This document shows, one piece after another, positions 5,811 to 16,465 of a DNA stretch of 64,000 bases. The position numbers and the translations under genes are program-made. The notes under the pieces are model-generated. The model had not been told where the DNA came from. It saw only the letters and a program-made list of their open reading frames with translations, and made no database searches. The number at the start of each line of letters is the position of its first letter. The stretch's first letter is position 1. Origin of the DNA: Streptomyces chromofuscus (GTDB lineage Bacteria; Actinomycetota; Actinomycetes; Streptomycetales; Streptomycetaceae); assembly GCF_015160875.1 (NCBI RefSeq), contig NZ_CP063374.1, positions 5,149,501 to 5,213,500 of the forward strand. Direction: 5' to 3'.

Positions 5811-7223
5811 GTGCGAATTTCTGACATTCAGCGCTGTGAGGTCCGGGCCGGACGGCTCGTCGAGTGGACGTTCAGCAAGGCGACCATCGCGGCCGCGGCA
5901 GCGCTGCCGCCGGATCCGCGGCCGCCGGCATACATTCAGGAGTCGCACATCAGGACGGCGCGACTGGTGCGGGAAGACGGTCTGTTCGTACCGACTTGGC
6001 TGGGCACGGCGTTCGACCTGCCGGGCCGAGCCGACCTCGACGCGCTGGAACAGGCCCTGCGTGGCTGGACGCTGCGCCACGAGACCCTGCGCAGCGGCTT
6101 CCGGTGGGTCGGCGACGACATGCACCGTTTCACGCTCCGCGGCAACGACGTGTCGCTGCAGCGCGAGGTGATCGGCGACTTCGTCGACACGGAGACGCTG
6201 ACCCGGTACCTGCAGGATCGATTCGACGTCGCGGCGGACGCGCTCGGCTGGCCGAACATCATCTATGCCGCGATCGTCCGCGACGAATCCACCAGTGTGT
6301 ACATGGCCTTCGACCACACCAACGTCGACGCCTACTCCCTCCAGCGCATCCCGGACGAAATTCACGAACTCTACGTCGCGGGCGTCATGGGGCGACCTCT
6401 CAGCGGCGCACCCGCGCGAAGTTACGTCGACTTCTGCCAGCAGGAACGGACAGACGCGGACGGGATCGACGACACACACGTGATCGTCGCGCGCTGGCGG
6501 GAGTTCATCGGACGGTGTGACGGGAGGCTGCCGGAGTTCCCTGTCGACCTCGGTCTGCGTCCCGGTGACCCGCTGCCCACCCAGAAGTTGGTGTGCGAGC
6601 CGCTTGTCGACGCGGAGGCCGCCGCCGCGTTCGAGGCTCACTGCCGACCCTACGGCGGAAGCCTGGTAGGCATTTTGGCCGCGACCAGTCTGATCGTCCA
6701 GGAACTCGGTGGGCAGCCGGTCTACCGTACGGTGGTGCCGTTCCACACCCGGCTGAAGTCCGCGTGGTCGGACTCCGTGGGCTGGTACGTCGGCGGCGCA
6801 CCCATCGAAGTGCCCGCGGCACGCGACTTCCACGGGGCGCTGGAGACGGTCCGCGCCGAGTTGCGGGCCAACCGGTCACTGGCGCGCATTCCACTGGCCC
6901 GCGTACTGCGTCTGCTCGGCAGGGACTTCCGCCCGAACTCCCCCGACATGTACTCGATCGTCTCTTACGTGGACGCCCGCCTCATCCCGGGCGCGGCCCA
7001 CTGGGCCGAGCAGAGGGCGTACGGGCTGATCCGGGTGTCGTACGGCGACCAGGTGTGCGTCTGGGTCAACCGGCTGCACGAGGGACTGTGGTTCGCCTGC
7101 CGGTACCCGGACACCGACGTCGCCTACAAGAACGTGCGGCGCTATGTCGAAGGGCTGCGGGACCTGATCGTCTCCGTCTCGGCGCGCGATCGCGTCCTGG
7201 CCCCGGAATGGGAATTCTCGTGA
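5811..7223 (+). CDS. Stand-alone condensation-domain protein
   Basis: A 470-residue single-domain member of the NRPS condensation / acyltransferase superfamily, expected to join an acyl or aminoacyl donor to a nucleophile in the cytoplasm. The catalytic HHxxxDG motif appears as DHTNVDA at residues 168-174: the second His (169) and the Asp (173) are kept, the first His is Asp and the Gly is Ala. This pattern is known in tolerant or PapA-like members. Other family features are LRHETLRSGF near 88-97 and GWYVGGAPIEV. The GTG at 5811 has a strong GAAGGAGA site. No adenylation or carrier protein lies nearby, so the substrate is unknown; it may be an orphan tailoring enzyme. Confidence 0.75.
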   Translation: MRISDIQRCEVRAGRLVEWTFSKATIAAAAALPPDPRPPAYIQESHIRTARLVREDGLFVPTWLGTAFDLPGRADLDALEQALRGWTLRHETLRSGFRWVGDDMHRFTLRGNDVSLQREVIGDFVDTETLTRYLQDRFDVAADALGWPNIIYAAIVRDESTSVYMAFDHTNVDAYSLQRIPDEIHELYVAGVMGRPLSGAPARSYVDFCQQERTDADGIDDTHVIVARWREFIGRCDGRLPEFPVDLGLRPGDPLPTQKLVCEPLVDAEAAAAFEAHCRPYGGSLVGILAATSLIVQELGGQPVYRTVVPFHTRLKSAWSDSVGWYVGGAPIEVPAARDFHGALETVRAELRANRSLARIPLARVLRLLGRDFRPNSPDMYSIVSYVDARLIPGAAHWAEQRAYGLIRVSYGDQVCVWVNRLHEGLWFACRYPDTDVAYKNVRRYVEGLRDLIVSVSARDRVLAPEWEFS

Positions 7224-7478: not shown

Positions 7479-7721
7479 ATGCGCAAGCTTCAGCAGGTCG
7501 TGATCGCAGCAGTGGCGGCGGGCGGCCTGTCCGCCGTCGGCGCCGGTACCGCTACCGCCGACGCCCCTGACAGCGGAGTGCGGTTGACCGACCTCTACCG
7601 CCCCTACCAGGAGTGCAGTCCGCAGACGGTGTCCGAGAACGACGTCCCGATCGGTGTGCTCGGCCTCGCGGGCGCCATGGACACGGCCTGCGGCCAGTAC
7701 AACAACGCCTTCACCGGCTGA
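7479..7721 (+). CDS. Small secreted protein, RPYQECSPQ family (short form)
   Basis: An 80-residue precursor with a typical Sec signal peptide (MRKLQQ, hydrophobic to about residue 24, cleavage likely after TATA or ATADA). The roughly 50-residue mature protein has two cysteines, C46 and C71, and the motif LYRPYQECSPQ followed by DVPIGVL. The same motif and exactly the same 25-residue Cys spacing recur in the protein encoded at 10234-10713, so the two are paralogues. I do not recognise a functional family. The short, disulfide-ready mature form suggests an extracellular or surface role. It heads a run of similar genes ending in a chaplin. Confidence 0.8.
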   Translation: MRKLQQVVIAAVAAGGLSAVGAGTATADAPDSGVRLTDLYRPYQECSPQTVSENDVPIGVLGLAGAMDTACGQYNNAFTG

Positions 7722-7819
7722 GTTCGGCGGCGTCGACGCGCCCGAGGCTCGGCGGACCTTTCGCGGCCGGCCTCGAAGGGCCCCCTTCCCCGGGCCGGTT
7801 GTCTGAGTGTCGAAGACGG

Positions 7820-7854
7820 TGCCCGGCCCGCCCGGTGTTCAGGGGTGCCGGGCA
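7820..7854 (+). promoter_or_regulatory. Leader hairpin before secreted-protein gene
   Basis: TGCCCGGC at 7820-7827 pairs perfectly with GCCGGGCA at 7847-7854 around a 19-base loop. The hairpin ends about 8 bases before the GAAGGG ribosome binding site of the gene at 7879. The paralogous gene at 8993 has a longer hairpin in the same position, so this may be an mRNA-leader element; it could also help terminate the gene ending at 7721. Confidence 0.4.
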
Positions 7855-7878
7855 TCCCTACGAAGGGAAGCGCATCAC

Positions 7879-8220
7879 ATGTTCAGCAGGAAGAAGATCG
7901 CGGTGGTCTCGGTGCTCGTCGGCGGCCTCGCAGTGGCCTGCGCCGGAACGAGCCATGCGACTGTCGGGGAGACCTCGGGAGGCTGTACTCGTGACCTCCT
8001 GGGCAACATCTCCTGCACTCAGCGGATCCAGGGCGTGATCCCCGAGGACGGCGTCGTCCCCCACCAGGAGACCTGCATGCCGGTGAAGCCGTTGACGCTG
8101 CCCGCCGCCTGGGGGACCGGGACGACACGGCTCGGGCCTGAGGTGACCTGTTCCCCTACGACTACGGGAGCGCCCGACGAGGCTGACGGCGTGCCGGAGT
8201 CGTTCGGCCTGACGGGCTGA
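7879..8220 (+). CDS. Small secreted four-cysteine protein (paralogue of 8993)
   Basis: A 113-residue precursor with a signal peptide (MFSRKKIAVVSVLVGGLAVACAG, cleavage probably after SHA at residue 27). The mature chain has cysteines at 36, 46, 66 and 91, consistent with two disulfides. The protein from 8993 has cysteines at 36, 46, 68 and 97 and shares the leader MFxxRKIAxVS, a QExC context and GPxVxCS, so they are paralogues. The C-terminus is acidic and ends FGLTG. A Cys at 21 lies inside the signal peptide but does not fit a lipobox. The function is unknown; secretion and disulfides are inference from sequence. Confidence 0.75.
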   Translation: MFSRKKIAVVSVLVGGLAVACAGTSHATVGETSGGCTRDLLGNISCTQRIQGVIPEDGVVPHQETCMPVKPLTLPAAWGTGTTRLGPEVTCSPTTTGAPDEADGVPESFGLTG

Positions 8221-8386
8221 GTACGGCAGACCACATCCTTCCGGCCGACGTCGTTCCCTGCTGCGCGACGCGGCACGGGCCGACACGACGTCGAGAACGT
8301 AGATCCCGAAATGTGACCAACTGTGCGTATATGATCACAAACAGTATTCAAGCCGGGCAACTCGCCTGGGTAAGAAAGGGTCATTC

Positions 8387-8671
8387 ATGCACAAGTTGCA
8401 GCGCGTTGCAGTCGTCGCCGTGGCGGTCGCGGGACTGTCCGCCTTCGGTGCCGGGGTCAGCTTCGCCGGCGAGGGCGACACTCCGCCTGTCACCGCCGTG
8501 GCCAACTCGTCGGCCAACGCCGTGGCTGTCGGCGGCGGCTACTACGTTCAGCCGCACGCCGCGCCGGAGCAGCAGAAGCACGGCGAGCCCGAGCAGGACT
8601 ACGGCCAGCACGGCGAGGGTGAGCACGGTGAGGGCCAGCACGGCGAGGGTGAGCACGGCGAGGGCGAGTAA
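8387..8671 (+). CDS. Secreted protein with His/Glu/Gly repeat tail
   Basis: A 94-residue precursor with a Sec signal peptide (MHKLQRVAVVAVAVAG, cleavage near SFA at 28). The leader is closely similar to the neighbouring MRKL proteins. The mature part starts polar, then from about residue 65 consists of HGEG(E/Q) units repeated to the C-terminus. It has no cysteine. The His/Glu density could bind divalent metals; that is inference. AGAAAGGG upstream is the ribosome binding site. A TATGAT at 8330-8335 could be a -10 element but no matching -35 is obvious. Confidence 0.75.
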   Translation: MHKLQRVAVVAVAVAGLSAFGAGVSFAGEGDTPPVTAVANSSANAVAVGGGYYVQPHAAPEQQKHGEPEQDYGQHGEGEHGEGQHGEGEHGEGE

Positions 8672-8814
8672 AGGCGTACCGAGAGCTCATTCTCTTGGCG
8701 CTACCACGGGCCATCGACCTTCTTCGGAAGCGAGAAGCTCAGGGCACACCACCGCAACGGCCTGATCCCGACTCGGCCTGCTCCCTCGTGTGCTGAGTGA
8801 CATCCGTGGCGAAG

Positions 8815-8859
8815 GCAGCCCGGACGCGCAGCAGTCATGACTGTCCGCGTCCGGGCTGC
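8815..8859 (+). terminator. Hairpin terminator after the His/Glu-tail gene
   Basis: Perfect 14-bp stem: 8815-8828 (GCAGCCCGGACGCG) pairs with 8846-8859, loop of 17 bases. It lies 144 bases after the stop at 8671 and before the next leader; no strong T-run follows. Confidence 0.55.
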
Positions 8860-8926
8860 GGCAATCTTGCCGCCGGGCGCAGCTGACTATGCATTCCGGC
8901 GTAGAACGATCAGTTTCGACAATCTC

Positions 8927-8970
8927 AGGCCCGGGCGCACGCCAGTCACATGACAACGGCGCCCGGGCCT
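8927..8970 (+). promoter_or_regulatory. Leader hairpin before gene 8993
   Basis: AGGCCCGGGCGC (8927-8938) pairs perfectly with 8959-8970. It ends about 9 bases before the AAAGGAG ribosome binding site of the gene at 8993. Its position mirrors the hairpin in front of the paralogous gene at 7879, suggesting a conserved mRNA-leader structure. Confidence 0.45.
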
Positions 8971-8992
8971 ACGTCGTAAAGGAGCGCAGCAC

Positions 8993-9337
8993 ATGTTCAC
9001 TTCGCGGAAGATCGCCACTGTCTCGGGGATCGTCGGAAGTCTCGCCGCAATCTGTGTCGGTGCCGGACACGCATCCGCAGATGGGCGCTCGGGCAACTGC
9101 GAGAGCACCGTGCAGGGTGGCACGGTCTGCATTCGCAAGAGCGAGACCCGTATGGACAAGGACGGCGAGCATGTCATCAGGCAGGAGCAGGAATGCTCGA
9201 CGACCGACCGGCCGAACGTGGTGTTTCGGGACGACCAACTGTTGGGTGGCGGGTCCGCCGGCGTGGGGCCGGTTGTGGACTGCTCCAACACGGCGAAGCT
9301 GCCGAAGGGCTTCAAGAAGCCGCATGTCGAGATCTGA
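8993..9337 (+). CDS. Small secreted four-cysteine protein (paralogue of 7879)
   Basis: A 114-residue precursor with signal peptide (MFTSRKIATVSGIVGSLAA, cleavage probably after GHASA at 29). The mature chain has cysteines at 36, 46, 68 and 97, matching the paralogue encoded at 7879, and shares the GPxVxCS segment; unlike it, this copy is basic at the C-terminus (GFKKPHVEI). The start is fixed by AAAGGAG eight bases upstream. A GC-rich hairpin precedes the ribosome binding site and a strong terminator follows, so it is likely monocistronic. No known domain recognised. Confidence 0.75.
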   Translation: MFTSRKIATVSGIVGSLAAICVGAGHASADGRSGNCESTVQGGTVCIRKSETRMDKDGEHVIRQEQECSTTDRPNVVFRDDQLLGGGSAGVGPVVDCSNTAKLPKGFKKPHVEI

Positions 9338-9347
9338 GCGCCGTCGG

Positions 9348-9390
9348 CGAATGCCGGGCCGGGACGATTCCCGGCCCGGCATTCGTTTGT
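9348..9390 (+). terminator. Rho-independent terminator
   Basis: Perfect 17-bp stem (9348-9364 with 9369-9385) closed by a four-base CGAT loop and followed by TTTGT. It lies 11 bases after the stop of the gene at 8993. Confidence 0.85.
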
Positions 9391-9458
9391 GCCTCGCCCT
9401 ACGTGACGCTGACCCTGTTGTCGCAGTTCCGCGGCTCGCCGATGCCGACTACGTTCTG

Positions 9459-9493
9459 CCGGACGCCGGACGCCGGACGCCGGACGCCGGACG
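9459..9493. repeat. Tandem repeat (CCGGACG)x5
   Basis: Five perfect contiguous 7-bp units between two convergent transcription units. Slippage-prone and likely variable in copy number among strains. Confidence 0.85.
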
Positions 9494-9663
9494 ACCGTTG
9501 TGGCTGTGGATCTCGCCCGCGCCCTCCCGTCGACCGGACGATCCGTCACACCGCGCCCGGACCGCGGCACGCGCAGTGGTCGAGGAGTGCGTCGCGTGAC
9601 TGAAAGCGCGGGGGATCTGCCGCAAGGCCCGGTACGGCCCGCGAATCTGCCGGCGCACGCAGA

Positions 9664-9703
9664 TGGTCCCGGCGCCTAGCCCTGGGGCCTGGTGCCGGGA
9701 CCA
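9664..9703 (-). terminator. Terminator of minus-strand secreted-protein gene
   Basis: 13-bp stem (9664-9676 with 9691-9703, one G-U pair) with a 14-base loop, 33 bases beyond the stop codon at 9736. Confidence 0.55.
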
Positions 9704-9735
9704 ACTCGCTCGGCGGCTGTGCGCCGACCGGAACG

Positions 9736-10017
9736 TCAGAAGGCGCTGTTGTTGCAGCCCATGGTGGAACCGATGTGGGAGGACTGGGCGCCCGGGTTGC
9801 CCTCGCCGTTGAGCCCGTTGCCCAGCAGGCCGTTGAGGAGGCCGACCTGGCCAAGGATGTCGAGGTTCAGGTCGTGCGACTTGCACTGGGAGTTCTGCGA
9901 GATGTGGAACTTGTCGCCGTCCTTGCCCTTGCCCTGGTCGGCGTGGGCCGTGCCGCCCACGAGGCCGATGCTGCCGAGTGCGGCGACCAGGACGGCAACG
10001 GTGCGAAGCTTGCGCAT
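9736..10017 (-). CDS. Small secreted protein, NGEGNPGAQ family (copy 1)
   Basis: A 93-residue precursor with a Sec signal peptide (MRKLRTVAVLVAALGS, cleavage after AHA at 26). The mature protein has a short Lys/Gly/Asp linker and then a 44-residue core from C45 to C88 that contains LNGEGNPGAQ and ends HIGSTMGCN. The copy encoded at 11976 shares 30 of 44 core residues and exactly the same Cys-Cys spacing. The Leu/Gly/Asn-rich core is reminiscent of surface-active or amyloid-prone secreted proteins, but it is not a chaplin or rodlin by motif. GGAG lies just upstream of the ATG. Confidence 0.8.
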   Translation of the reverse strand: MRKLRTVAVLVAALGSIGLVGGTAHADQGKGKDGDKFHISQNSQCKSHDLNLDILGQVGLLNGLLGNGLNGEGNPGAQSSHIGSTMGCNNSAF

Positions 10018-10081
10018 TTCATCTCCGGTGGAGTGGGTGGGTGCGATCTGCGGGAGATCGACTTTCTACAGTTCCCGGAGA

Positions 10082-10109
10082 CTAATAGGAAATGCGACAA
10101 AGCGGGCAA
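10082..10109 (-). promoter_or_regulatory. Possible promoter of minus-strand gene 9736-10017
   Basis: Read on the minus strand: TTGCCC (10109-10104), 16-base spacer, TATTAG (10087-10082), about 65 bases before the start at 10017. A moderate match to a housekeeping-type promoter; unverified. Confidence 0.3.
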
Positions 10110-10168
10110 AGGCGCGCCGATCTTGCGAACATGCGGCGGAAGCACCCGAAAAGCCGTATCGCATGCGA

Positions 10169-10201
10169 ACCGGCCTGCGCCGCGAAGCGCGGGAGGCCGG
10201 T
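10169..10201 (-). terminator. Hairpin after minus-strand gene 10234-10713
   Basis: ACCGGCCT (10169-10176) pairs with AGGCCGGT (10194-10201) 33 bases beyond the TAG stop at 10234. Confidence 0.45.
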
Positions 10202-10233
10202 GCCGGGCGGCAACGCGTGGCTGTCCGACGGTG

Positions 10234-10713
10234 CTACCGCGTGCGCGCGTTGGCGAAGGAATTCGCCTGACTGTTGGCCTGGGTGCAGTCGACGCCCCGG
10301 GTCTGGGAGGCGGCGAGCAGGGCGACCGGTACGTTCGCGGCGAGCAGGTTCTGCGGACTGCATTCCTGGTACGGCCGGAACAGGTTGGCCTGGCCCACCG
10401 GACCGCCCTGCTCCGACTGCGGGGCTTGCGGAGAAATGTGAGGGTTGATCTGCGGGTTCAGCTGAGGGTTGACCTGCGGGCTGACCTGGGTGCCCCGCTG
10501 GGGTGCCGCCTGCTGCGGAGCCGGCGAGCCGTAGGTCTGCACGGACGCCTGCGAGGAGGTGGCCGAGGCGGCCTGGGCGTCCGGCTGCGAGACGGGAGGC
10601 GGCACAGTCCCGTCGTAGGCGACCGGAGTGACGGCTGAGCTGGGGCCGGCGCCGACGGCGGACAGGCCACCGGCTGCTGCTACGACGAGCGCGACTCGCT
10701 GAAGTTTGCGCAT
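10234..10713 (-). CDS. Secreted protein, RPYQECSPQ family (long form with PQxNPQ repeats)
   Basis: A 159-residue precursor. Its signal peptide is almost identical to that of the protein from 7479 (MRKLQRVALVVAAAGGLSAVGAG). The mature chain has a Pro/Gln/Ser-rich linker, then PQVNPQLNPQINPHISP at about 79-95, then the C-terminal module LFRPYQECSPQ with C118 and C143, the same 25-residue spacing as the short paralogue. The PQ(V/I/L)NPQ repeats also occur in the Gln-rich protein encoded divergently at 11184. It is a modular surface-type protein of unknown function. The start region is nearly identical in DNA to that of 11184. Confidence 0.8.
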   Translation of the reverse strand: MRKLQRVALVVAAAGGLSAVGAGPSSAVTPVAYDGTVPPPVSQPDAQAASATSSQASVQTYGSPAPQQAAPQRGTQVSPQVNPQLNPQINPHISPQAPQSEQGGPVGQANLFRPYQECSPQNLLAANVPVALLAASQTRGVDCTQANSQANSFANARTR

Positions 10714-11183
10714 GAAATTCTCGGCCCTTCATTGACCTGTTCACGGAACCTGGTGAATTGCTCAAGTGGCAGCGTGATTGCCGCTGTTGTGCCGCCTGGT
10801 GCGGCTGCGACAGACCATCGTTCTTGCCCCGTGGGGAACGAGGTGAGCGCGAAGCCAGATACGGGCGGTGGGCCGTGGTCACCCATTTGACGCAAGGGTG
10901 CAGAGAGTCGCCACGACGCCCGTGCCGGTAGCGGCAAATGGGTGACGGACCTGTGTGTGCCGTGACCGCGGCGAGGAAAACCTCGTTCCACGTGGGGAGG
11001 GCAGCGAACGTGGACCCGAAGAGGCGTGAGGGAATGTGCTGCCGGCTCCGATGCGACGTCCGCGGGTTCCTCAAGCTTGACCGCTGCTGAGGGTGCGGCT
11101 GTGAGTATCGCACCGAGTGCATGCGTGACGGCGCACTGAATGCAATGGATTACCAATTCAGGTATCGAAGGGCCGAGGGTTTC
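10714..11183. promoter_or_regulatory. 470-bp divergent intergenic region with long inverted repeat
   Basis: Contains no gene but carries a 16-bp inverted repeat: 10878-10893 and 10931-10946 match in 15 of 16 positions when one is reversed (core CACCCATTTG / CAAATGGGTG). It lies between the divergent genes 10234 (minus) and 11184 (plus). A smaller hairpin GCGAGGAAAACCTCG lies at about 10971-10985. The arrangement fits a shared operator or two oppositely oriented promoter elements; no -35/-10 assignment is safe. Confidence 0.5.
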
Positions 11184-11900
11184 ATGCGCAAGCTTCACAA
11201 GGCCGCGCTCGTCGTAGCAGCGGCCGGCGGTCTGACCGGCGTTGGCGCCGACGCCAGCCATGCCACTGTCCCCGCCGGACACGGCGCTGCCGCTCCAATG
11301 TCGGCTCCCGACTACCCGGCCCCGCAGCCCGCCCCGCCGCCCGGTCCTGCCGCCTCGGCCGTATCGCAGGGAACGGCGCAGGCCGCCGCGCCGCAGTACC
11401 AGCAGCAGCCTGCCCCGCAGTACCAGCAGCAACCTGCTCCCCAGTATCAGCAGCAACCTGCGCCGCAGTACCAGCAGCAGCCCGCGCCGCAGTATCAGCA
11501 GCAGGCCCCGCCGGCACAGCAGACCGGTCACGCCTACGCCGCGGCCTCGTCGCACGGATCGGCGCAGGCGGCCGCGTCCCCGCACCAGCAGCAGCCTGCC
11601 CCGCAGTATCCACAGCAGTACCAACCGCAGGCCCCTCAGCCGCAGCAGCCCCAGGTCATGCCTCAGGTGGTGCCGCAGGTCATGCCACAAGTGGCCCCGC
11701 AGGTAGCCGTACCTCAGGCCTTCGCTCCTGAGCCCCCGATGCAGGTCACCCCCCAGGTGAACCCGCAGATCAACCCGCAGCTGAACCCGATCGTCAGCCC
11801 GCTCATCTCGCCGGCGAGCGCACCGCAGTTGGCGCCGGTCGGCCTCGGGCAGATCGCGGCACCGCCCCTCGGCCAGATGGGACTTCCCCGGCTCGGCTGA
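11184..11900 (+). CDS. Secreted Gln/Pro-rich repeat protein
   Basis: A 238-residue precursor with a signal peptide like its neighbours (MRKLHKAALVVAAAGG, cleavage near SHA at 27). The mature protein is almost entirely low complexity: five tandem APQYQQQP units at about residues 69-108, further QQQP/QYQPQ segments, then QVMPQVVPQV and QVNPQINPQLNP repeats, ending in a hydrophobic Pro/Leu/Gly tail. It has no cysteine. Such Gln/Asn/Pro repeats suggest an extended surface or matrix protein; no enzymatic motif is present. The PQxNPQ segment is shared with the divergent gene 10234. The ATG at 11184 follows GAAGGGCCGAG. Confidence 0.75.
   Translation: MRKLHKAALVVAAAGGLTGVGADASHATVPAGHGAAAPMSAPDYPAPQPAPPPGPAASAVSQGTAQAAAPQYQQQPAPQYQQQPAPQYQQQPAPQYQQQPAPQYQQQAPPAQQTGHAYAAASSHGSAQAAASPHQQQPAPQYPQQYQPQAPQPQQPQVMPQVVPQVMPQVAPQVAVPQAFAPEPPMQVTPQVNPQINPQLNPIVSPLISPASAPQLAPVGLGQIAAPPLGQMGLPRLG
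11391..11510 (+). repeat. Five 24-bp tandem repeats within the Gln-rich gene
   Basis: Five in-frame 24-bp units (11391, 11415, 11439, 11463, 11487), each encoding an eight-residue PQYQQQPA-type block. Third-position differences between copies show the repeats are not very recent duplications. Confidence 0.85.
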
Positions 11901-11975
11901 CGGCCTCCCCTGGTGCCGCCCTCAATCCCAACACCACGTGCTACGAACCCCATCCGCTCGATCAACGGAGAACCC

Positions 11976-12248
11976 ATGCGCAAGTTTCAGAAGGTCGTCC
12001 TCGTGAGCGCCATTCTCGGCAGCGTCGGCTCACTCGGTGGCAACACCGCCGTGGCCGACGAGCCGTACAGCGACCTCGACATCACGCAGGGCATCGAGTG
12101 CCGCTCGCACGACATGAACATCGAGGTGCTCGGCAGCGTTGGCGCCCTCACCGGCCTGGCAGGCAATCTGCTGAACGGCGAGGGCAACCCCGGGGCACAG
12201 CAGAACCACCTCGGTTCAGACATGGGTTGCAACAGCCAGGCGCTCTGA
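11976..12248 (+). CDS. Small secreted protein, NGEGNPGAQ family (copy 2)
   Basis: A 90-residue precursor: signal peptide MRKFQKVVLVSAILGSVGSL with cleavage near AVA at 27, then a 44-residue core from C42 to C85 containing LNGEGNPGAQ and ending HLGSDMGCN. The core is 30/44 identical to the protein from 9736 with the same Cys spacing, so the genes are a diverged duplicate on opposite strands. The CGGAG ribosome binding site fixes the start. A perfect terminator follows. No known family assigned; Leu/Gly/Asn content suggests a surface-associated role. Confidence 0.8.
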   Translation: MRKFQKVVLVSAILGSVGSLGGNTAVADEPYSDLDITQGIECRSHDMNIEVLGSVGALTGLAGNLLNGEGNPGAQQNHLGSDMGCNSQAL

Positions 12249-12307
12249 CCCGCACAGGTCCTCCTGGCAGAACGCCGCGCCACCGTCACATGTGACGACG
12301 ACCGCAA

Positions 12308-12349
12308 CAGAAAGAGGGACGCCAGCACCCGCTGGCGTCCCTCTTTCTG
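12308..12349. terminator. Bidirectional terminator
   Basis: Perfect 19-bp stem (12308-12326 with 12331-12349), ACCC loop, with AAAG and CTTTCT flanks that serve as T-tracts in either direction. It separates the gene ending at 12248 from the convergent chaplin gene. Confidence 0.9.
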
Positions 12350-12539
12350 CCTGCTGTAGGACCGCTATGTCGTTTTCGGCGCCACCCGAACCGGACTCGA
12401 TCGGGAGCGGGCGAGCCGGCGGGACCGGTCCAGAACAGCAGACCGCCGCCGCCCCGACGCTCATTGGCGACGGTGACGGCGGCTTGACCCGCTACTCGTC
12501 CGGACCGGGGCGTACCCGGTGGAGTCGTGCGCGTCCGGG

Positions 12540-13322
12540 TCAGTGATTGCGGCCCGGGCGGTAGCGGCGGTACAGGGTCGCGCCCGTGACGAGGAGCGCG
12601 GCGCTGCCGGCCACAGCGGTGGCCGTGAGGTCCGCTCCGGTGTGGGCCAGCGTGGGCGTCCCCAGGTGCGGGCTCGGCTGGGATCGGGAGATCGTGGGAG
12701 ACTCCGGGGCCTGGGGCTTCGGGGCCGGGGTGTCCGTGACCGGGGGCTTCGGCGCCGGGGTGTTCGCAGCCGGGGTGCTCGGTGGCTGGAGGGTCTCGGT
12801 CCCGGGCCCGTTGACCGACTCGTTCCCGAAGACCGGGTTGCCCAGGCCGGCCACGTTGACACTGTTGCCGGAAACGTTCACCGGCAGGTCGACGGGGAGC
12901 TGGATGCCGTTGCCTGCGATCAGCCCGGGCGAATCCGAGGTGAGGGCCTCGGCCGATGCCCCGCCGGACGTCGCCGATCCGCCGGTGGCCTCCGTACTGC
13001 CACCGGCCGCCGATCCGCCGCTCTGCGCCGAACTGTCGTCGTCCTTCACACCACCGGCCTTCGCCGCGCCCTTGTTGGCGCAGGTGTTGCCCGCGGCCGG
13101 GTTGAGCAGTCCGACGACGTCCACCGTGTTGCCGCAGACGTTCACCGGCACGTCCACCGGGATCTGGATGGTGTTGCCGGAGGCCAGCCCGGGCGAGCCG
13201 ACCGTCGTGCCGTCGGCGCCGGCTCCGTCGGCCGCGAGCGCGGCGGACACCGGGAGTGCCATGACCATCGCGCCGGAAGCGGCGACGACGGCAATCACAC
13301 CGTTTCGGGTAGCCCGTCTCAT
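12540..13322 (-). CDS. Long chaplin with two chaplin domains and sortase signal
   Basis: A 260-residue secreted surface protein. Signal peptide to about residue 31; chaplin domain 1 at about 42-83 (GSPGLASGNTIQIPVDVPVN, then C63 and C81); a Gly/Ser linker; chaplin domain 2 at about 130-171 with Ser replacing both Cys; a Pro/Thr/Lys wall-spanning region; LAHTG at 225-229 followed by a hydrophobic helix and RRYRPGRNH, a classic sortase-anchoring tail. Long chaplins are anchored to the wall and help form the hydrophobic amyloid coat of aerial hyphae. A sigma-BldN-like promoter lies upstream. It resembles the ChpA-C class; I cannot assign a specific letter. Confidence 0.93.
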   Translation of the reverse strand: MRRATRNGVIAVVAASGAMVMALPVSAALAADGAGADGTTVGSPGLASGNTIQIPVDVPVNVCGNTVDVVGLLNPAAGNTCANKGAAKAGGVKDDDSSAQSGGSAAGGSTEATGGSATSGGASAEALTSDSPGLIAGNGIQLPVDLPVNVSGNSVNVAGLGNPVFGNESVNGPGTETLQPPSTPAANTPAPKPPVTDTPAPKPQAPESPTISRSQPSPHLGTPTLAHTGADLTATAVAGSAALLVTGATLYRRYRPGRNH

Positions 13323-13372
13323 AGGTTCACTGCCTTCCTGACATCATCGCGGGCACTCACCCGCATTTCGTA

Positions 13373-13398
13373 AACGCAGGTGCACCAATCAGGTTATG
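13373..13398 (-). promoter_or_regulatory. Sigma-BldN-like promoter of the chaplin gene
   Basis: On the minus strand CATAAC (13398-13393), 16-base spacer, CGTT (13376-13373). This is one mismatch from the sigma-BldN consensus CGnAAC-N16-CGTT that is established for chaplin and rodlin genes. It lies about 50 bases before the chaplin start codon. Confidence 0.65.
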
Positions 13399-13433
13399 GG
13401 TGCCGTCCCGCAGGCCACTCTCGGGCACTAGTC

Positions 13434-13643
13434 TCAGACTTCTTTGCCGAACGGAAGGAGCTGGATGAGGGGCTCCGGAAGTGAAATGGGTCCCCCCTGC
13501 ACCAGACTCCCGAGCGGGTTCGGTTCCGCACCCTCGCTGTGGGCCACTGCAGCGGTTGCGGATGTCTCCGCCTGAGCGGGGGACATGGACAACATCATGC
13601 CGGTCGCCGCAGTGATCACTGCGGGCAGGATCATTTTCCTCAT
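13434..13643 (-). CDS. Small secreted protein
   Basis: A 69-residue precursor with a signal peptide (MRKMILPAVITAATGMMLSM, cleavage after AQA at 24). The mature peptide of about 45 residues is acidic, then ends with the hydrophobic stretch PEPLIQLLPFGKEV. No cysteine. It is transcribed in the same direction as the chaplin, upstream of its promoter. The ATG at 13643 has no good ribosome binding site, which lowers confidence. The longer frame upstream on the same strand is antisense to the SDR gene and is not believed. Confidence 0.55.
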   Translation of the reverse strand: MRKMILPAVITAATGMMLSMSPAQAETSATAAVAHSEGAEPNPLGSLVQGGPISLPEPLIQLLPFGKEV

Positions 13644-14696: not shown

Positions 14697-14881
14697 TGAC
14701 GCTCCGTCATGTCGGCCGTATGGCGGGCCGGTTACATCCGTGCAGGGCCCTTGTGCAATTCCTGTGGAAGCCTCAATCTTTCGGCTGACGCACAGGTGAG
14801 CCGCAACGGCTTGTCATGTTCCTGCCCATCTGAGGCGTCGCCCCCACGCCAGCGCACCACCGATTGAGGAGGACCCCTCAG

Positions 14882-16465
14882 ATGGCAGTGATGCGTACTC
14901 CCCACCGCACCACCCGGCGAAGACTGCCTGCGATCGGCGCCCTGACCAGCGCGGCGCTCGCCGCGGGCCTCGTCTCCGCCCTGCCCGCCGGGGCGGCCCC
15001 GGCGGCCGAAGGCCGCATCCAGTACGAGGGCGCGGCGAACGCCGTCGCCGACAGCTACATCGTGACCCTCAAGGCGGACCAGGCCCGCTCGGGCACCGCC
15101 GAGGGGCGCGCGCTGGCCAAGAAGTACGGCGCCACCATCGAGCGTACGTACACCAAGGCCCTGAACGGTTACGCGATCGAGGCCGACGCGGACGAGGCGA
15201 AACGTCTCGCCGCCGACCCGGCCGTCGCCTCCGTCGTCCAGAACCGCACCTTCACCATCGCCGCGACCCAGCCCAGCCCGCCCTCCTGGGGCCTGGACCG
15301 CGTCGACCAGCGCAACCTCCCGCTCAACAACTCGTACACCTACCCGGACAGCGCCGGGCAGGGCGTCACGGCGTACGTCATCGACACGGGCGTGCGCATC
15401 ACCCACAGCGACTTCGGCGGCCGCGCCTCCTACGGCTACGACGCCGTCGACAACGACAACACCGCCCAGGACGGCCACGGCCACGGCACCCATGTCGCCG
15501 GCACGGTCGCCGGCGGCGCCTACGGCGTCGCCAAGAAGGCGAACGTCGTCGGCGTCCGAGTGCTCAACAACTCCGGCTCCGGCACGACCGCGCAGGTCGT
15601 CGCCGGCATCGACTGGGTCGCCCGGAACGCGGTCAAGCCGGCCGTCGCCAACATGTCCCTCGGCGGCGGCGCGGACACGGCCATCGACACCGCCGTGCGC
15701 AACGCCATCGGCACCGGCGTCACCTTCGCCGTCGCCGCCGGCAACGAAACCACCAACGCCTCGACCAGGTCGCCCGCGCGCGTGACGGAGGCGATCACCG
15801 TCGGCGCCACCACCAGCACCGACGCCAAGGCGAGCTACTCCAACTACGGCTCGGTCCTCGACCTGTTCGCCCCCGGCTCGTCCATCACGTCCGCCTGGAA
15901 CACGGGCGACTCGGCCACCAACACCATCTCCGGCACGTCGATGGCGACCCCGCACGTCGCCGGAGCGGCGGCGCTCTACCTGGCCGCCAACCCCACGGCC
16001 ACGCCCGCCCAGGTGTCCACCGCGCTGACGTCCGCGGCCACCCCCAACGTCGTCACGAGCCCCGGCTCCGGCTCGCCCAACCTCCTGCTGTACGTCGGCG
16101 GCGGCACCCCCACGCCTCCCGGCCCGCGCTTCGAGAACACCGGGGACTACGCCATCGCCGACAACGCCACGGTCGAGTCCCCGGTGACGGTCACCGGCGT
16201 CTCCGGCAACGCGCCCTCCGCGCTCGCCGTCGAGGTCCACATCGTCCACACCTACATCGGTGACCTCCAGGTGCAGCTGATCGCCCCCGACGGCACGGCG
16301 TACACGCTCAAGGGCTACGGCACCGGCGGCAGTGCGGACAACATCGACACCACGTACACCGTCAACGCCTCCTCCGAGGTCGCAGGCGGCACGTGGAAGC
16401 TGAGGGTCAGCGACAACGCGCGCTACGACACCGGACGCATCGACGCCTGGGCGCTGCAGTTCTGA
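14882..16465 (+). CDS. Secreted subtilisin-like (S8) serine protease with P-domain
   Basis: A 527-residue precursor. Signal peptide to about residue 42 (AGAAPA region), inhibitor I9 propeptide about 57-127, then a proteinase K-like S8 catalytic domain with Asp168 (AYVIDTG), His201 (GHGHGTHVAG), oxyanion Asn288 (AAGNET) and Ser353 (GTSMATPHVAG). The C-terminus (about 420-527) is a P/homoB domain ending in RIDAWALQF. The ATG at 14882 is chosen because AGGAGGA lies eight bases upstream; a TTG just upstream overlaps that site. It is an extracellular protease. Its stop is 7 bases from that of a convergent serpin gene, a possible inhibitor pair. Confidence 0.93.
   Translation: MAVMRTPHRTTRRRLPAIGALTSAALAAGLVSALPAGAAPAAEGRIQYEGAANAVADSYIVTLKADQARSGTAEGRALAKKYGATIERTYTKALNGYAIEADADEAKRLAADPAVASVVQNRTFTIAATQPSPPSWGLDRVDQRNLPLNNSYTYPDSAGQGVTAYVIDTGVRITHSDFGGRASYGYDAVDNDNTAQDGHGHGTHVAGTVAGGAYGVAKKANVVGVRVLNNSGSGTTAQVVAGIDWVARNAVKPAVANMSLGGGADTAIDTAVRNAIGTGVTFAVAAGNETTNASTRSPARVTEAITVGATTSTDAKASYSNYGSVLDLFAPGSSITSAWNTGDSATNTISGTSMATPHVAGAAALYLAANPTATPAQVSTALTSAATPNVVTSPGSGSPNLLLYVGGGTPTPPGPRFENTGDYAIADNATVESPVTVTGVSGNAPSALAVEVHIVHTYIGDLQVQLIAPDGTAYTLKGYGTGGSADNIDTTYTVNASSEVAGGTWKLRVSDNARYDTGRIDAWALQF

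Follow-up and report, generated by a model that had tools for sequence, protein, structure and literature searches.

A recurrent eight-gene module for small secreted proteins in Streptomyces and its possible connection with the spore surface

A 64,000-nucleotide stretch of the Streptomyces chromofuscus genome (contig NZ_CP063374.1; referred to below as the window) contains, at positions 7479–12248, a block of eight genes for short proteins with secretion leaders, located beside a gene for a long chaplin (Table 1). Comparative analysis revealed that the eight-gene set is a true module, whose recurrence in other streptomycetes is far above chance. A surface role of the encoded proteins is likely, and the surface concerned is probably the sheath of the spores with its ornaments.

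The module proteins

The positions of the open reading frames (ORFs) given in a preliminary description of this region, which was made from the nucleotide sequence alone, were borne out, as was the grouping of six of the proteins into three pairs, A1/A2, B1/B2 and C1/C2. Comparison of the mature parts only (hhalign, leaders removed) revealed homology that extends past the leader, with probabilities of 99.2% for A1 and the A2 core, 99.9% for B1–B2 and 97.9% for C1–C2. The three families did not match each other when mature chains were compared in this way (the highest value, 15%, was obtained for B1–C2), and the idea that A and B constitute one superfamily gained no support. The mature chains contain two conserved cysteines in A and B, and four in C. 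The other two products are, as had been noted, repeat proteins: D is rich in His, Glu and Gly, and E in Gln and Pro.

Secretion was judged from the leaders by eye. A leader of the MRKL/MRKF/MHKL type is present on A1, A2, B1, B2, D and E, and that of C1 and C2 is of another type (MF..KKIA.VS), so the near-identical leaders originally reported are a property of six of the eight proteins. None of the nine small proteins considered (the eight and the product of a further ORF at 13434–13643) scored above a Pfam or NCBIfam cut-off, in agreement with the view that they belong to no known family. Sub-threshold matches to PT-VENN and Zf_WRKY19 were taken as chance, and so was the similarity of D to PepSY_MTB (E 0.0046; 17.4 bits, the cut-off being 60), which lies partly over the leader.

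Distribution and gene order

The window pairs were used as queries against 121 Streptomyces genomes, namely that of the window strain and 120 others sampled from the genus. Strong matches to A, B and C were found in the same 19 genomes, in which the families lie together; contig ends truncate the blocks of G001, G084 and G085, the block of G063 holds a stretch of N, and that of G090 includes extra B copies and a chaplin. The A matches of G004, G026 and G037 (E 3.0e-4 to 6.5e-4), the weak B matches of G026, G027, G105 and G107, and the weak C matches of G026 and G027 were set aside. For A and C no strong match was detected outside the module in the 121 genomes, a result contrary to the independent scatter of the families that had been named as evidence against a common system. 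The case of B is mixed: dispersed copies outside the module (L079–L094) occur in many module genomes (in one genome, B matches at E ≤ 0.001 number as many as 11), and the strong ones are found in module genomes only.

A scan of the named collection with the A2 alignment yielded 73 loci, 71 of them from Streptomycetaceae. The remaining two (from Ruminococcus and a cyanobacterial metagenome-assembled genome) match over 26–32 residues of the proline stretch and were ascribed to chance. The 71 loci span 42 named species, i.e. 41 Streptomyces and Actinacidiphila paucisporea; L101 and L107 represent one isolate, and L105 and L112 one species, all of which were kept in the count. All eight families are present in 52 loci, and A1, A2, B1, B2, C1, C2 and E are found together in 62; D was not recognised in 15, some of which end at contig ends. 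A single gene order is shared by 52 of the 71 loci. The exceptions involve contig ends, inversions (L120, L121 and L130) and the rearranged form seen in S. noursei, S. chattanoogensis, S. albospinus and S. piniterrae, a clade that has retained the families in a different order. B1, single in the window strain, has two or more copies, usually in tandem, in most other loci. A reduced set composed of C2, two B genes and A2 was observed in A. paucisporea and Streptomyces sp. NRRL F-5123 (L164 and L165). The ORF at 13434–13643, previously counted as a ninth member, starts with a secretion-like leader, but tblastn detected no relative of it in 91 module loci (the 71 named ones and 20 others). It was therefore excluded from the block, and is either strain-specific or not a gene.

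Within the genomes sampled, the module is confined to Streptomycetaceae. At the family level, the A2 alignment matched 30 of 297 genomes: 22 of Streptomyces and, with lower scores, eight from four other genera, among which one reached only 5e-4. At the class level, the B alignment matched five of 246 genomes, all from the genus of the window and one weakly. A plasmid origin was rejected, the matches in plasmid records numbering three for B and one each for A2 and C2, all in Streptomyces. On the rpoB tree of the 121 genomes the module is patchy, and its distribution requires at least 11 changes.

Comparison of the loci also revealed a common sequence, GAAGGGCCGAGGGTT-like, directly before the start codons of A1, A2 and E (upstream of 7479, of 10713 on the minus strand, and of 11184). 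Within the last 45 columns of the upstream alignments, the number of gap-free columns at least 90% identical was 17 for E (62 sequences), 11 for A1 (61 sequences), 5 for A2 (70 sequences) and 0 for chaplins (24 sequences). This likeness suggests that the three upstream regions share an origin and perhaps also a mode of translational control. A hairpin over the A1 start was not conserved in A2 and E and was dropped.

Rodlins and chaplins in module-bearing genomes

Rodlins were detected in 93 of the 121 genus genomes (92 above the cut-off); of the 28 rodlin-less genomes, 20 were directly negative and eight were so classified by exclusion. Rodlins were missing from 13 of the 19 module genomes (three classified in this way by exclusion), compared to 15 of the 102 others (Fisher test, p = 4.4e-6, ancestry not corrected). 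With correction for the tree, the difference is not significant. The rodlin distribution itself needs at least 16 changes on the rpoB tree. Among 18 further module-bearing Streptomyces from the family sample, 11 had no rodlin match at 1e-10 (six directly negative and five by exclusion) and seven had one.

Chaplins are present in 121 of 121 genus genomes, and their co-occurrence with the module is therefore uninformative; the check proposed in the preliminary description, co-occurrence with chaplins and absence elsewhere, cannot decide the matter. The median number of chaplin-domain matches was 6 in genomes with the module and no rodlin, 14 in those with both, 6 in those with neither, and 9 in those with rodlins only.

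Spore surface phenotypes

The ornamentation of the spore surface (smooth, spiny, hairy or rugose) is a classical character of Streptomyces taxonomy. Species in the A2-alignment match list were scored as positive and species not in the list as non-hits, the genome of a non-hit not necessarily being in the collection. The surface descriptions used below derive from parts of the cited papers. All 11 positive species with such a description are spiny, hairy or rough: S. glaucescens is hairy (PMC5307326), S. rhizosphaerihabitans hairy and S. populi rough (PMC7023189), S. piniterrae and S. chattanoogensis spiny (PMC7232196; the latter also PMC10111032), S. noursei spiny, in a strain other than that of the genome (PMC12417419), S. 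echinatus and S. cellostaticus spiny and S. musisoli rough (PMC11061393), and S. spinosisporus spiny (PMC12166134); S. spinoverrucosus, also spiny, appears at the margin of a clade reported to be spiny (PMC7656270). The smooth species are all non-hits, namely S. siamensis, S. lydicus, S. kronopolitis, S. corchorusii, S. harenosi, S. leeuwenhoekii, S. thinghirensis (assigned by column order), S. fumigatiscleroticus and S. capoamus.

The resulting table contains 11 ornamented or rough and no smooth species among the positives, and 10 ornamented and nine smooth species among the non-hits (Fisher p = 0.011; 0.026 without the focal positives S. piniterrae and S. noursei and the focal smooth S. harenosi). 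Five contrasts could be drawn within single papers: S. glaucescens with S. thinghirensis (PMC5307326), S. rhizosphaerihabitans and S. populi with S. siamensis (PMC7023189), S. echinatus, S. musisoli and S. cellostaticus with S. corchorusii (PMC11061393), S. chattanoogensis and S. piniterrae with S. lydicus (PMC7232196), and S. spinosisporus with S. fumigatiscleroticus (PMC12166134). All five point in the same direction, for which the sign test gives just 0.0625. The searched text contained no surface description of the positive species S. monashensis, and none was present in that of the S. actinomycinicus PJ85 paper.

Species names meaning spiny or hairy are positive in seven of 16 cases, compared to 19 of 121 in the background (p = 0.007); the 16 names were picked after the match list had been seen, and the prefix hisp yielded none. 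In the open-access literature searched, no paper on structural genes for spore ornament was found.

Genetic organization and flanking genes

The organization of the window locus is summarized in Table 1. The neighbouring chaplin noted in the preliminary description is real; its LAHTG end gave a best NCBIfam match that falls under the cut-off of that model. The gene at the other end of the block encodes COND, which exceeds the threshold for a condensation domain (PF00668, 56.9 bits compared to a cut-off of 30.6) and retains the HxxxD motif.

Table 1. Coordinates of the module genes and the adjoining genes within the window.
Feature	Position	Strand	Description	Pfam match
COND	5811..7223	+	standalone condensation-domain protein (coenzyme A-dependent acyltransferase fold), module-flanking; DHTNVDA motif	PF00668, 1.9e-15
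A1	7479..7721	+	80 amino acids; leader; RPYQECSPQ; mature chain with two Cys	
C1	7879..8220	+	113 amino acids; leader; four conserved Cys in mature chain	
D	8387..8671	+	His/Glu/Gly repeat protein; leader; most variable member	
C2	8993..9337	+	114 amino acids; paralogue of C1	
B1	9736..10017	-	93 amino acids; leader; NGEGNPGAQ	
A2	10234..10713	-	159 amino acids; PQVNPQLNP stretch (common to E) fused to A domain	
E	11184..11900	+	Gln/Pro repeat protein; leader; PQVNPQ stretch; conserved GLGQ-to-GLPRLG-like C-terminus	
B2	11976..12248	+	90 amino acids; paralogue of B1	
Long chaplin	12540..13322	-	two ChpA-C stretches; LAHTG sortase-like end	PF03777, 1.6e-45

The flanks of the module vary between loci. 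A chaplin lies near it in 28 of the 71 named loci, and a COND homologue (tblastn) in 39, at a distance from the module end that is mostly about 750 bases or less but reaches 2.6 kb in L110. In 18 loci a WS/DGAT-like acyltransferase is found together with a FabF-like ketosynthase. These two types of flank never occur in the same locus, and neither is present in 14 loci, several of which are cut by contig ends. COND copies with 60–76% identity exist elsewhere in module genomes, as well as in 16 genomes without the module, so the copy at the module may have been recruited. About 20 loci, which include many of those of the WS/DGAT type and a few others, also have a gene for an ABC-transporter ATPase (UgpC-like) in the vicinity of the module. 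Dependence on bldA through TTA codons was rejected, since no such codon occurs in the ten window genes tested. Beyond the chaplin, the ORF at 14864–16465 appears by eye to encode a secreted subtilisin-like protease.

A putative outer sheath

The leaders, conserved cysteines, repeats and paralogous pairs are consistent with structural surface proteins, as is the adjacent chaplin, and the rodlin pattern and the phenotypes would place these proteins on aerial hyphae or spores. The preliminary description had proposed an undescribed surface or extracellular assembly, with no mention of spore ornament or rodlin loss. Co-inheritance of the three unnamed families, the leaders, the nearby chaplin in 28 of the 71 loci, the restriction to Streptomycetaceae in the sample and the partial complementarity with rodlins all fit this proposal, which is partly supported. 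The putative joint role has support from co-inheritance. We give an even chance to the interpretation that the block encodes structural proteins of an alternative or additional outer sheath over the chaplin layer, most likely forming or carrying ornaments, the latter part being suggested by the phenotype table and the species names. The eight proteins would be exported by Sec and would build a sheath on aerial hyphae and spores, either on top of the chaplin layer or together with it, as an alternative or addition to the rodlet layer of the rodlins, and this sheath would form or carry the spiny or hairy ornaments. In such a structure A, B and C could be disulphide-bonded subunits, and the PQVNPQ segment of A2, like D and E, a flexible repeat linker; the adjacent acyltransferase-fold enzyme might provide a lipid or acyl modification, and the wall-anchored long chaplin might serve as the attachment point.

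A narrower proposal, tentative and on the whole rather doubtful, is that one class of Streptomyces spore ornaments is genetically determined by the module. The three disulphide-bonded families and the two repeat proteins would then build the spines or hairs together with an acyltransferase-fold partner enzyme, and the rodlin rodlet layer would be dispensable in lineages that possess the module. If true, unrelated proteins can replace the rodlin layer. The eight-gene candidate makes the genetics of spore ornament directly testable, since there are species with the module and relatives seemingly without it.

A number of observations weigh against the interpretation as an ornament-bearing sheath. 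Rodlins and the module are both present in six of the 19 module genomes, and G001, one of the 13 counted as rodlin-less, is just 79% complete. Among eight independent pairs on supported rpoB branches, the expected direction was seen in a mean of 4.5, the opposite one in 0.3 and neither in 3.2; the median p was 0.125 (range 0.03–1). The link is weak once ancestry is considered, and the association between rodlins and the module is therefore suggestive but unproven. Low chaplin numbers track the loss of rodlins and not the module, as the median is 6 with or without it. AlphaFold models are poor, with a mean predicted local distance difference test score (pLDDT) of 50.6 for B and 53.2 for C. Regarding the phenotypes, surface descriptions cover 11 of the 42 named positives, two of which are rough only, and the papers, represented by the parts searched, were found through words such as "spiny". 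The same sources describe as ornamented the non-hits S. viridosporus/ghanaensis, S. asenjonii, S. althioticus, S. griseomycini, S. griseostramineus, S. lomondensis, S. glomeratus, S. labedae, S. rugosispiralis and S. malaysiensis; the module is therefore not needed for every ornament. Eight further ornamented non-hits, new or unnamed, had been left out of the table (triticiradicis, naphthomycinicus, sediminimaris, phytorum, EKL1.1, endophytica, NL15-2K and one column of the S. glaucescens table, species unread), and their addition raises the Fisher p from 0.011 to 0.038.

Much of this would also suit a general sheath of aerial hyphae and spores, active in hydrophobicity, adhesion or protection, that replaces or supports the rodlins and has no specific part in ornaments, the correlation with ornament then reflecting ancestry or the selection of papers. 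Chaplin adjacency and rodlin complementarity agree with such a sheath, as do the ornamented non-hits and the small, selected phenotype sample, whereas the uniformly ornamented or rough surface of the 11 described positives and the concordance of the five within-paper contrasts (even at a sign-test value of 0.0625) speak against it; we consider it unlikely, though a serious competitor. It is distinctly improbable that the products are a non-structural interaction or defence set, either antimicrobial-like or tied to a lipid or peptide through the condensation or WS/DGAT enzyme. Small secreted cysteine-containing proteins with a patchy distribution, adjoining enzymes of the secondary-metabolism type and the UgpC-like ATPase close to some 20 loci could be read in that sense. 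However, no gene of an immunity-like or regulatory kind could be identified within the block, the ATPase gene, found in some loci only, looks like a chromosomal neighbour, and paralogous pairs, proline/glutamine repeats and an adjacent chaplin suit an assembly better. The patchiness on the rpoB tree, with its minimum of 11 changes, could finally be taken to mean that secreted proteins of unrelated function stay together only because their genes are physically linked or jointly transferred, which we regard as very improbable: this view is hard to sustain without joint selection, because the families persist together beside differing flanks and in the rearranged order of the noursei clade.

Comparison with known surface proteins

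SapB and SapC/D/E are spore-associated proteins of Streptomyces; a literature search on SapC/D/E gave no useful result. The chaplins (PF03777) resemble the module proteins in being short, secreted and located at the surface, and the window chaplin adjoins the module. They differ in that A–E contain no PF03777 match and in their occurrence in all 121 genus genomes, compared to 19 for the module. No hhalign match was obtained between A, B or C and the chaplin, whose profile covers a short stretch only.

Two loci from the rodlin-less genomes G026 and G027 (L075, 6404–9424, and L076, 7190–9290) contain, beside a chaplin, genes for two-cysteine proteins with an MRKYQ leader together with C-like proteins. 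The leader is similar to that of the module, and the C-like proteins show a weak likeness to C1 (hhalign 63%) and C2 (70%). In contrast, the mature parts do not match B, and strong matches are limited to two of the 121 genomes. This set is possibly an analogous cluster.

The rodlins RdlA and RdlB (NF041022) are, like A and B, small secreted paralogues with two cysteines; they are located on the outer aerial surface, where they act with chaplins, and their distribution is partly complementary to that of the module. They differ in sequence, since alignment of the mature A, B and C chains with 13 rodlins gave hhalign probabilities below 1% and the NCBIfam rodlin model matched none of A1, A2, B1, B2, C1 and C2, and also in that the module comprises several families per block. 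According to the searched part of a published study, RdlB of S. coelicolor forms amyloid needed for the rodlet layer, which possibly lies as a layer of its own on that of the chaplins (PMC5314377). Such an outer layer is therefore a known kind of structure, which in module-bearing species may consist of unrelated proteins.

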